From positions 1-5,919 of the forward strand of contig JAHDDN010000351.1 in NCBI GenBank assembly GCA_020629335.1: a stretch of 5,919 nucleotides of DNA, written 5' to 3'. A program made the translations under genes and the position numbers. Below the pieces are notes generated by a model. That model saw only the letters and a list, made by a program, of their open reading frames with translations, made no database searches and was not told the origin of the DNA. The DNA comes from Chitinophagales bacterium. Lineage in GTDB: Bacteria; Bacteroidota; Bacteroidia; Chitinophagales; UBA2359. This document shows positions 4,007-5,919 of the stretch, one piece after another (within the stretch, counting starts at the first letter, position 1; each line of letters begins with the position of its first letter).

Positions 4007-4209
4007 TTAGGGGCTTCCCCCTTGCACACAAATTCTGTCGCAAGCGTCCGCTTGTGACAATTTGTGTGCAAGGGGTCGGGCTGTTCGCTATTATGTGGCT
4101 ATGCGCTTCCTACTACGCTAAGGTCTGCTTGTCTCTTTATGGAGCCTGCGCATACCTAAGCTCCATAAGTCAGCACATGGCCGCCACATACCGCTGCCAT
4201 CCCTAAGCC
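4007..4209 (+). repeat. Structured MITE-like element, left copy
   Basis: This 203-bp element begins TTAGGGGCTTCCCC (4007-4020) and ends CCATCCCTAAGCC (4197-4209). The same ends occur on the minus strand at 5903-5916 and 5694-5706. Between them lie a head palindrome (4018-4075) and a body of about 137 bp that matches the other copy at roughly three-quarters of positions by eye. Conserved blocks include GGGTCGGGCTGT, TTATGTGGCTATGCGC, TACGCTAAGGT, CTTGTCT, ACCTAAGCT, CATAAG and CGCCACATACC. Two long-range pairings are kept in both copies: TATGTGGC (4092-4099) with GCCACATA (4183-4190), and GCTAAGGT (4117-4124) with ACCTAAGC (4154-4161, one A-A mismatch). The 6-bp direct repeat AATTCA flanks it exactly. 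No ORF of note lies inside. It could be a non-autonomous transposable element or a structured RNA; it lies 135 bp upstream of galT. Confidence 0.85.
4018..4075. repeat. Head palindrome of left element: 17-bp perfect arms with nested hairpin
   Basis: The arm at 4018-4034 (CCCCTTGCACACAAATT) is a perfect inverted repeat of 4059-4075. Inside it, after a 2-nt bulge, GTCGCAAGC (4037-4045) pairs with GCTTGTGAC (4050-4058) through one G-T wobble around the loop GTCC. The total is about 26 bp of pairing. The sequence is unrelated to the palindrome at the same place in the right copy. No U-tract follows on either strand, so a Rho-independent terminator is unlikely. Confidence 0.9.
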
Positions 4210-4215
4210 AATTCA
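4210..4215. repeat. Right flank of putative 6-bp target-site duplication (AATTCA)
   Basis: This second AATTCA directly follows the conserved end CCTAAGCC of the left structured element. The match is exactly 6 bp and does not extend to a seventh base on either side. Confidence 0.65.
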
Positions 4216-4239
4216 AGGTATCTGGGTAAGTTGGTATCA

Positions 4240-4274
4240 AGTATGTTAGTACGAGTTCTCATCACTAACATACT
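4240..4274. promoter_or_regulatory. 11-bp perfect inverted repeat upstream of galT
   Basis: AGTATGTTAGT (4240-4250) and ACTAACATACT (4264-4274) are perfect inverted repeats separated by 13 bp, 70-104 bp before the galT start. The right arm begins a run of five ACTAA pentamers at 4264, 4272, 4279, 4287 and 4296, spaced 7-9 bp. It could be an operator for galT control or a leader hairpin. No regulator gene is nearby and no recognised promoter boxes were found, so the role is open. Confidence 0.5.
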
Positions 4275-4343
4275 AACTACTAATAGACTAAATTTACTAA
4301 AATAATCCTTACCTTCGATCCTCATATTCAAAATATTATCATT

Positions 4344-5369
4344 ATGACAGAATTTGACCTTAATGAACATACACATAGACGATATAACCCATTAGCAGAT
4401 GAATGGGTATTAGTCTCTCCACACCGATCTAAACGCCCATGGCAAGGCCAAATAGAAGATATACCTGTCTCAGAAAGACCCGCTTATGATCCAAATTGCT
4501 ACTTATGTAAAGGTAATAGTCGTATGGGTGGAAAACAGAATCCTGATTACGAAAACATATTCGTATTTGATAATGATTTTGCGGCCTTACTCATAGATAC
4601 ACCTGCTGGGGAAAATGAAAAAAGCGAAGACTTATTTCGATTCAAAAGTGAAAGAGGAATGTGTCGAGTCATCTGCTTTTCTCCTAATCATAGTTTGACT
4701 TTAGCTCAAATGGAGGTGGATGCAATCGCTAAGGTAATAGAAGAATGGAGTCGCCAATATGTAGAATTAGGCCAACATGAGCGAATTAACTACGTCCAAA
4801 TATTTGAAAATAAAGGCCAAATGATGGGCTGTAGTAACCCACATCCACATGGACAGATTTGGGCAACAGAAAGTATCGCTGATATCCCTGCGAGAGAAAA
4901 CAAAGCGCAGAAGGAATATTTTTATCAAAAAGGAAGTACCCTATTAGGGGATTATTTGAAAGCAGAAAAGGAAAAGCAGGAACGAATTATCTATGAAAAT
5001 GAGACCTTTACGGTTTTAGTACCTTTTTGGGCGGTTTGGCCTTATGAAAGCATGATTTTACCTAATCGTTCAGCTGAAAATATCAGTCAATTGAGTTCGC
5101 AAGAAATTAATGATTATGCTGATGCTATTAAGGTATTGACGACTAAGTATGATCGATTATTCAATGTTTCTTTTCCTTATTCGGCAGGAATACATCAAGC
5201 ACCCACTAATGAAAATGATAGCGACTATTGGCATTTACACCATCACTTTTATCCGCCTTTATTAAGGTCCGCTACGGTGAAAAAATTTATGGTAGGTTAT
5301 GAAATGATGGCTAATCCTCAAAGAGACTTTACCGCAGAATTTAGTGCGCAACAATTGAAAGCGCTATAA
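4344..5369 (+). CDS. galT: Galactose-1-phosphate uridylyltransferase (UDP-glucose--hexose-1-phosphate uridylyltransferase)
   Basis: This 341-residue cytosolic enzyme of the Leloir pathway exchanges UMP between UDP-glucose and galactose-1-phosphate, giving UDP-galactose and glucose-1-phosphate. It is of normal length for the E. coli-type GalT family (HIT superfamily). The active site is GCSNPHPHGQIW (162-173): H169 is the expected nucleophile that becomes uridylylated, and Q171 follows. Metal-site residues C52 and C55 (CYLC), H116 (SPNHSL) and H167 match the structural zinc ligands of the E. coli enzyme. NPLADEWVLVSPHR (15-28) and the C-terminal GIHQAPTN and WHLHHHFYPPLLRS blocks are also typical. 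The start at 4344 gives the expected N terminus; upstream is AT-rich without a clear Shine-Dalgarno. No galK, galE or galM is in the window. Its stop codon directly abuts that of the convergent moaD gene, and the gene pair lies between two inverted copies of a structured repeat. Confidence 0.98.
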   Translation: MTEFDLNEHTHRRYNPLADEWVLVSPHRSKRPWQGQIEDIPVSERPAYDPNCYLCKGNSRMGGKQNPDYENIFVFDNDFAALLIDTPAGENEKSEDLFRFKSERGMCRVICFSPNHSLTLAQMEVDAIAKVIEEWSRQYVELGQHERINYVQIFENKGQMMGCSNPHPHGQIWATESIADIPARENKAQKEYFYQKGSTLLGDYLKAEKEKQERIIYENETFTVLVPFWAVWPYESMILPNRSAENISQLSSQEINDYADAIKVLTTKYDRLFNVSFPYSAGIHQAPTNENDSDYWHLHHHFYPPLLRSATVKKFMVGYEMMANPQRDFTAEFSAQQLKAL

Positions 5370-5615
5370 TTAACCTCCACTTACTGGTGGAATAATCGCC
5401 ACTTCATCTCCATCACTTAATAATTGATGATCCTTACAGTAGGCTTCATTCACCGCAAAGGAGACTTTAGCTAATTCCTTAAGCTCAGGGTGTTTTTCAA
5501 ATAAAGATTGCTTGAAGTCCTCAATAGTCGCATTCGAGGCGATAGACCATTCTATTTGCTGTTGACCTAATATTTCTTTGGCTATTCCGAATGCTAGTAG
5601 ATTTATTTTGATCAT
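5370..5615 (-). CDS. moaD: Molybdopterin synthase small subunit MoaD (ubiquitin-like sulfur carrier)
   Basis: This 81-residue beta-grasp protein carries sulfur as a C-terminal thiocarboxylate and, with MoaE, converts precursor Z (cPMP) to molybdopterin. It begins MIKINLLAFGIAKEILG and ends AIIPPVSGG. The terminal Gly-Gly is the site of adenylation and sulfuration, and PPVSGG is characteristic of MoaD rather than ThiS. I chose the ATG at 5615 because an in-frame ATG at 5684 would add 23 residues (GEVPERRRG and so on) translated from a GC-rich intergenic repeat, whereas 5615 gives the standard family start and length. No other moa or moe gene is in the window, so it may be separated from its pathway or lead into genes outside it. 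Its stop codon touches the galT stop (5367-5369) with no gap. Confidence 0.93.
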   Translation of the reverse strand: MIKINLLAFGIAKEILGQQQIEWSIASNATIEDFKQSLFEKHPELKELAKVSFAVNEAYCKDHQLLSDGDEVAIIPPVSGG

Positions 5616-5633
5616 AAGATTAGATAACTGATT

Positions 5634-5651
5634 AACCAAGAAATTTTGGTT
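5634..5651. promoter_or_regulatory. Short inverted repeat upstream of moaD
   Basis: AACCAA (5634-5639) and TTGGTT (5646-5651) are inverted around GAAATT, 19-36 bp upstream of the chosen moaD start. It may be an operator or chance; the arms are only 6 bp. Confidence 0.25.
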
Positions 5652-5654
5652 TAT

Positions 5655-5690
5655 CCCCCTCCGCCTTTCAGGCACCTCCCCCAAGGGAGG
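5655..5690. repeat. GC-rich double-hairpin repeat next to the right element
   Basis: This C-rich stretch contains GCCT-TTC-AGGC (5663-5673) followed by CCTCCC-CCAA-GGGAGG (5675-5690). Sequences of this look recur between genes in Bacteroidota genomes (from memory). Translated on the minus strand it produces the spurious GEVPERRRG peptide that falsely extends moaD. It ends 3 bp before the right copy of the structured element, so two repeat families are stacked here. Confidence 0.55.
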
Positions 5691-5830
5691 ATAGGCTTAG
5701 GGATGGAAGTGGTATGTGGCGTAATGGGACTGCTTATGAAGCTTAGGTGGACGTAGGCTGGCCTGCAAGGCAGACAAGTACACCTTAGCGTAATAGCAGG
5801 CGCATAGCCACATAAGAACGGACAGCCCGA

Positions 5831-5905
5831 CCCAATTATTTTTTGGCCATCGTTGGGCCGACACATAGGTAGGCCCCTACAAACGATGGCCAAAAAATAA
5901 TTGGG
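5831..5905. repeat. Head palindrome of right element: 24-bp perfect arms
   Basis: The arm at 5831-5854 (starting CCCAATTATT, ending CCATCGTT) is a perfect inverted repeat of 5882-5905. The 27-bp centre (5855-5881) is a variant of the hairpin repeat found at 1841-1866 and 1891-1916. It occupies the same place as the unrelated palindrome of the left element. Confidence 0.9.
5855..5880. repeat. 26-bp hairpin repeat, copy 3, nested in the palindrome centre
   Basis: This copy matches copy 2 at 23 of 26 positions. Two of the three changes are compensatory: the fifth stem pair is G-C in copy 2 and C-G here (C5859 with G5872), so GGGCC (5855-5859) still pairs with GGCCC (5872-5876). The remaining change leaves one G-A mismatch. 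The core ACATAG loop (5863-5868) and the 3' CTAC are kept. Confidence 0.75.
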
Positions 5906-5919
5906 GAAGCCCCTAAAAA

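Follow-up and report, generated by a model that had tools for sequence, protein, structure and literature searches.

The window, by which we mean the whole 5919-base stretch of DNA analysed here, encodes a methyltransferase, a family-2 glycosyltransferase (GT2), a TPR protein, galT, and a MoaD/ThiS-family gene. The last two are enclosed by two inverted copies of one structured element, at 4007–4209 (plus strand) and 5694–5916 (minus strand), and the contig ends only 3 bases past the second. An earlier sequence-only reading had described such a pair around galT and moaD; inverted repeats and folding confirm the two copies, and Pfam supports the enclosed genes as galT and a member of the MoaD/ThiS family.

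Four inverted repeats pair 4007–4212 with 5691–5916: I1 (62 nt, 87%), I2 (31 nt, 90%), I4 (27 nt, 81%), and I18 (14 nt, 100%). The bodies of the two copies are identical at 114 of 135 aligned bases (84.4%), and between the shared ends and the body lie two nearly perfect hairpins (4017–4075 and 5831–5906) that are unrelated to each other. From the 5' end, the element consists of a tag, a 5-bp stem (P1), a side hairpin (P2), and a longer stem (P3) that resembles Flavo-1 (RF01705), a family held in Rfam; R1 is a nine-row model of the P3 core. The features are as follows.

4007–4209, plus strand: copy 1 of the element, with tag, P1, P2, and P3 (inverted repeats, fold, model R1, family comparison)
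4007–4011, plus strand: 5' tag of copy 1, TTAGG, outside P1 (TT(T/A)GG in the family)
4012–4016, plus strand: 5' strand of copy 1 P1, GGCTT, complement of 4205–4209 (comparison with relatives; the copy's own folds favour another register)
4017–4075, plus strand: near-perfect P2 side hairpin of copy 1 (inverted repeat I8; folds)
4073–4209, plus strand: P3 of copy 1, a Flavo-1-like stem with an 83-nt insert (4100–4182) at its tip, and the 3' strand of P1, AAGCC (4205–4209)
5694–5916, minus strand: copy 2 of the element (inverted repeats, fold, model R1, family comparison)
5912–5916, minus strand: 5' tag of copy 2, TTAGG (family comparison)
5907–5911, minus strand: 5' strand of copy 2 P1, GGCTT (family comparison; DNA fold)
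5831–5906, minus strand: P2 side hairpin of copy 2, with 24-bp perfect arms (inverted repeat I3; folds)
5855–5880, minus strand: GTAG-tagged palindrome in the P2 tip of copy 2, similar to a repetitive extragenic palindrome (REP) (direct repeat D1; related copies at 1835–1866 and 1885–1916)
5694–5833, minus strand: P3 of copy 2, with an 86-nt insert (5721–5806) and the 3' strand of P1 (5694–5698) (R1, Flavo-1)
4344–5369, plus strand: galT, with N- and C-terminal GalP_UDP_transf domains, a bystander (Pfam)
5370–5615, minus strand: MoaD/ThiS-family protein, a bystander (Pfam)

In copy 1, the first three bases of P3 also close P2. The outward-facing TTAGGGG ends named in the sequence-only reading are present, but judged by relatives they are not a unit, comprising the TTAGG tag and the first two bases of the 5-bp stem GGCTT/AAGCC. 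Whole copies fold far better than their shuffles, both as RNA (z −7.3 and −7.0) and as DNA (z −7.6 and −7.2), and in none of these four tests did any of 200 shuffles equal the real sequence; this excess comes mostly from the side hairpins. The GTAG-type palindrome occurs three times in the window, and the one in the P2 tip of copy 2 is apparently a nested insertion, a separate element.

A three-way junction related to Flavo-1

At a lenient Rfam threshold, both copies match Flavo-1 over all 76 of its positions (1–76), on the same element strand and with ~87 nt inserted at the tip. Copy 1 scores 23.3 bits (E 0.055, on the opposite strand) and copy 2 scores 22.6 bits (E 0.084), below the gathering score of 42 bits; R1, of which each copy is itself a row, gives 52.7 and 53.9 bits, respectively. 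The element had been called undescribed, which is correct only in part, as it matches the whole of a known model yet stays under that model's gathering score.

The window element and Flavo-1 share the P3 core, with outer GGG/CCC pairs, a G-N-A/G-N-A internal loop, and AGC..AGCGG arms, as well as a Bacteroidota host, dispersal, and high copy number in some genomes. They differ in the P3 insert of 83–86 nt, in the P1, P2, and tag that lie beyond the 76-position model, and in a base swap (CGGGCT/ATCCC in the window, CCCGCT/ATCGGGG in the commoner Flavo-1 sequences examined). R1 recovers all 12 gathering-level Flavo-1 copies in loci L211–L215, but five of its nine rows came from the RF01705 search. 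A model built from window-type copies only (R2, four rows) finds one of those 12 (L213:11053) and, at E ≤ 0.1, four of 30 best-match loci, of which two also pass E < 0.01. On sequence comparison, the window copies and Flavo-1 are most likely homologous and form one large Bacteroidota repeat family.

A copy-number search in related genomes, which had been proposed as a check, shows the family to be widespread: R1 matches 38 of 198 Saprospiraceae genomes at E ≤ 0.01, with at most 25 candidates scored per genome and with two of the matched genomes (G001 and G101) having supplied rows of the model. RF01705 matches 37 of 247 Bacteroidota genomes, 28 of them above its cut-off, and none of 14 control genomes (18 candidates scored per genome). 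Genome G101 holds at least 33 copies, and G401 holds 41 Flavo-1 copies at E ≤ 0.01, 34 of them above the cut-off, when 150 candidates are scored. Six of these 41 copies fall within 64 kb (G401:C1 478250–542251) of a 5.5-Mb chromosome.

A more specific pattern scan covering one genome per species (84,980 species) matched two contigs. One (L001, from Saprospiraceae MAG-38, genome G001) carries a true relative of the window element; the other (L002) lies within a reading frame of 446 aa and was discarded as matching by chance. L001 shares the insert of the window copies but has just ATAAAT where they have a side hairpin, and L005, from another Saprospiraceae genome, is without the insert, so the parts of the element are separable. 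A second contig of the L001 genome (L004) starts inside an element, as expected because repeats break assemblies. An Rfam search of G001 and G002 matched neither genome, but its controls were likewise silent and it is therefore uninformative. In a virus collection, a first pattern gave no matches and a second gave five contigs, two of which carry elements; full elements lie on these IMG/VR contigs at L209 22–158 and L206 772–840, in virus or host flank.

We analysed 112 copies, drawn from 80 fetched regions together with single loci, the window, L001, L005, and the two virus-collection contigs. The family layout is TT(T/A)GG, P1, CCC-P2-GGG, tCGGGCTnTCCGcT, P3 shaft, CCgCTnCnATCCCT, P1', that is, a three-way junction preceded by a tag, in which P1 is 5 bp, P2 is a variable side hairpin, and P3 has conserved internal loops and a variable tip. 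The tag is well conserved among 105 copies (T 85%, T 80%, T or A 92%, G 90%, G 97%). P1 pairs exactly at all five positions in 87 of the 112 copies, compared with 7.8% when tails are swapped and searched in the same way (taking the best site in the 130 nt upstream and slightly favouring sites followed by CC). P1 pairs 2, 4, and 5 are Watson-Crick in 105–106 of 107 copies against 43–56 in shuffled sets, although these counts, unlike the 87 of 112, lean on copies having been kept for their P1 match. P3 pairs 11–62 and 16–57 are each Watson-Crick in 105 of 112 copies (62 and 68 shuffled), in copies located by a model that already contains those pairs.

The outer internal loop has GNA on both sides in 102 of 112 copies when the complement of the element strand is read, and the conserved loop and tag positions argue for recognition. 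P2 is at least 20 nt long in 70 of 107 copies, 26 of which have at least eight uninterrupted pairs from the foot; its sequences mostly differ between genomes, less so within G101, and related P2 hairpins among the G122 copies show paired changes by eye. The stems of the element covary. In the nine-row set, none of 500 shuffles equals the covariation score, but some do equal or exceed the number of pairs in which both bases have changed. In G197 (L195–L199), most of five 3' flanks share ~45 nt more past P1' (CTACGCGC..CGGCTTGTCGAGCT), and the element seems, from these flanks, to be longer at its 3' end in this genome.

Genomic context and stem mismatches

The copies are dispersed between genes: 98 of 111 are intergenic, compared with 21% under random placement. 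Among 91 copies with a gene on both sides, the orientation of the flanking genes is near random (++ 31, −− 22, +− 22, −+ 16), and G401 gives the same picture, with 37 of 41 copies intergenic and near-random gene orientation. The element lies closer to the gene on its 5' side (median 64 bases) than to that on its 3' side (144 bases), and A+T-rich sequence fills the 5' flank as far as the tag. No target duplication was found in 102 copies, in which totals of shared words of 4–8 bases are below the shuffled means. The longest shared flank word is six bases in four copies (4.8 expected) and at least six in six copies (6.3 expected). The AATTCA flanking copy 1 was considered as a target duplication and rejected, as it is at chance level.

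Mismatches in the stems bear on whether the structure is kept as RNA or as DNA, because selection on one RNA strand should leave more G-T pairs, its own wobble, than A-C pairs, the wobble of the other strand. Among 3506 stem pairs, there are 86 G-T, 66 A-C, and 195 other mismatches; omitting the P3 shaft leaves 26 G-T and 31 A-C. Canonical Flavo-1 shafts (31 copies) have 8 G-T and 5 A-C in 449 pairs. In contrast, the tRNA control (34 of 35 tRNAs from genomes G064 and G401) has 38 G-T and 3 A-C in 578 pairs, and the element differs from it by Fisher's test over all stems (p 6e-6), without the shaft (p 1e-6), and in canonical Flavo-1 (p 0.015). Neither strand of the element therefore evolves like tRNA, the shaft being the sole contrary sign, and this suggests that the structure is kept at the DNA level.

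Nature of the element and of the galT–moaD bracket

These observations are best explained by a dispersed non-coding, REP-like, mobile or formerly mobile DNA element, with the bracket arising from two independent acquisitions by neighbouring gaps; we give this reading a probability of about 0.7. The folded form would act as DNA, either as an extruded cruciform or as a single strand, and a putative enzyme would copy the element, or would once have copied it, into gaps between genes, leaving no duplicated target. Selection acting when the element is copied may keep its stems paired, and template switching during replication perhaps does so too. Around galT and moaD, two neighbouring gaps would each have acquired a copy, rather than the pair bounding a mobile or invertible unit. 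In our view, the family consists of DNA that is or once was mobile, which does not make its members proven transposons. A broader proposal, which we put forward tentatively and at somewhat less than even odds, is that Flavo-1, filed as a small RNA since 2010, does not encode an RNA and is instead one arm, P3, of a larger three-way junction of DNA that also includes the tag, P1, and P2. Such an element would spread without target duplication by an unrecognised mechanism not involving a REP-associated tyrosine transposase (RAYT) and would pass between lineages, and the window would represent an expanded lineage with P3 and P2 cargo.

Several results weigh against the DNA-element reading. Without the rest of the element, the bodies barely surpass their shuffles in folding, if at all (z −1.5 and −1.9 for the element strand and −2.8 and −2.2 for its complement; 0.3 and −0.04 for the L001 body). 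The P1 register GGCTT/AAGCC appears in one of four single-sequence folds (copy 2 as DNA), the other three (copy 1 as RNA and as DNA, copy 2 as RNA) pairing TTAGGG with CCCTAA, and P1 in the window copies is accordingly a prediction from relatives, not from their own folds. In G401 there is no replication-strand bias (26:15, p 0.12; 21:20 by local skew), which leaves lagging-strand insertion unsupported, and targeting of that strand was rejected. A search for empty sites in relatives of G397, with Rfam run on 10 of 12 fetched loci, gave shared rather than empty sites, so recent mobility is unsupported. Four genomes of one genus, presumably Flavobacterium, share the position of one Flavo-1 copy and are 74–83% identical there (L211 and L221 above the Rfam cut-off; by alignment only, L222 with a broken 5' arm and L223 with an altered shaft). 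Some Flavo-1 copies are therefore old, and this one suits vertical inheritance. Copies are also sparse in the two genomes counted, so that two within 1.7 kb are uncommon, with a second copy in one of 80 fetched regions. The P3 shaft taken alone has 60 G-T and 35 A-C (p 0.013), as an RNA role predicts. Lastly, template switching at imperfect palindromes can restore stems, according to part of one report (PMC8794818), and could yield the same symmetry of mismatches, which alone is thus no proof of DNA function.

One stretch shared by L211, L221, and L222 is followed in L211 (15593–15670) by a canonical Flavo-1 but in L221 (~17100–17230) and L222 (~14830–14900) by a GGGCGTG-type element; in sequence, this looks like different subfamilies in the same gap.

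If Flavo-1 and its relatives were small or cis-acting RNAs, the window copies would be expanded RNA genes. Rfam files Flavo-1 as Gene; sRNA, a table entry describes it as probably an RNA (PMC2864571, as far as that table goes), and both the covariation of the stems and the G-T excess of the shaft fit. However, the excess sits on the strand opposite to Rfam's Flavo-1, G-T and A-C are nearly equal overall, unlike in tRNA, and orientation to genes is near random. In Flavobacterium psychrophilum, moreover, the relevant part of one study (PMC9723704) has Flavo-1 matches 'indistinctly' in sense or antisense of transcribed regions, with many outside them and several at structured 5' regions. We therefore regard an RNA identity as unlikely.

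A role for a RAYT or another Y1 (IS200-type) transposase in moving the element, as a repeat like REPs or bacterial interspersed mosaic elements (BIMEs), appears less probable still. The foldback structure, short 5' tag, intergenic dispersal, and lack of target duplication are in its favour, as is a Y1 transposase (PF01797) match in 14 of 20 genomes carrying Flavo-1 or the element; the other six have no match, an absence that counts for little where genomes may be incomplete. Against it, just one of 30 fetched Y1 loci (60 matches) has a Flavo-1 at gathering score, more than 1 kb away, so that no RAYT gene flanked by the repeat was found among these 30, and G401 shows no replication-strand bias. 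REPs and BIMEs with RAYTs are GTAG- and CGTC-tagged palindromes, and the portion of a 2013 survey dealing with them assigns CGTC repeats to Bacteroidetes and GTAG repeats to other phyla (PMC3733652). Like these, the element is a short dispersed intergenic foldback with a tag at one end; unlike them, it is a three-way junction of ~60–220 nt rather than a 20–40-nt palindrome beside a GTAG or CGTC tag, its tag is TT(T/A)GG, and the RAYT link was not found. With miniature inverted-repeat transposable elements it shares a non-coding nature, dispersal, and complementary ends, but it differs from them in that its 102 examined copies lack target duplications, its ends are a 5-bp stem of varying sequence, and no matching transposase was found.

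The sequence-only reading had likened the bracket to the flanks of a composite transposon or an invertible segment, which we consider highly improbable. Two unrelated genes do lie inside an inverted arrangement, and galT, present at 30 loci across 29 of 198 Saprospiraceae genomes and no more than 60% identical, has no moaD or TPR gene near it at any of the 30 (tblastn, up to 1.5 kb on each side; four loci are short and a short moaD is missable). Nor is the element found near galT at these loci. The closest galT other than the window's own, among the best 120 protein matches listed, is 65% identical. Yet the near-identical flanks expected of a composite transposon are not seen, the copies being 16% different, and copy 2 is closer to the copy of another genome, L001 (89.3%), than to copy 1. 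The open reading frames of at least 60 aa between or across the copies comprise galT, the MoaD/ThiS gene, and a third of 80 aa that matches nothing in Pfam, and no transposase gene was seen in or between the copies. The family is dispersed and lacks target duplications. Independent acquisition is the simplest reading, given the divergence of the two copies and close pairs elsewhere: G401 has two neighbour pairs less than 3 kb apart, one tandem and one inverted, and a second copy occurs in one of 80 fetched regions (up to ~3 kb each). The alternative that had been held in reserve, a chance neighbourhood of an abundant element, fits with a family dispersed across many genomes.

The genome of L001 is only a distant relative, with a GT2 69% identical to that of the window (in a frame with one stop) and a galT 55% identical; the best GT2 among 175 matching genomes is 77% identical to the window's. 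Searching with 176 bases of L001 gives matches in two of 199 family genomes, one of them limited to 45 bases. The long-insert form, present in two distant genomes and otherwise unseen, suggests passage between lineages, and selection on the insert is also possible.

A review places Flavo-1 among the most abundant small RNA families and, in the part concerned, gives no function (PMC9029176). Our search of the open-access literature, with subscription papers and supplements outside its scope, found no description of P1, P2, or a DNA reading of Flavo-1. The fuller anatomy (tag, P1, and P2) and the measured absence of tRNA-like wobble provide a testable alternative, a DNA element. If this is correct, many loci annotated as 'sRNA' in Bacteroidota would in fact be repeat DNA, and one could look in concrete terms for an enzyme that recognises the folded three-way junction.

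Matches of the window to microRNA families (MIR474 and others) were dismissed as long hairpins scoring below gathering cut-offs. Another short palindrome (CCTCCC...GGGAGG, 5655–5690) directly adjoins copy 2 in front of moaD. A short imperfect repeat (GCGAACGCAGTGAGCGGTCTCT-like) occupies 1–60 at the other contig end, so that, with copy 2 at the far end, both ends of the contig seemingly lie inside repeats.

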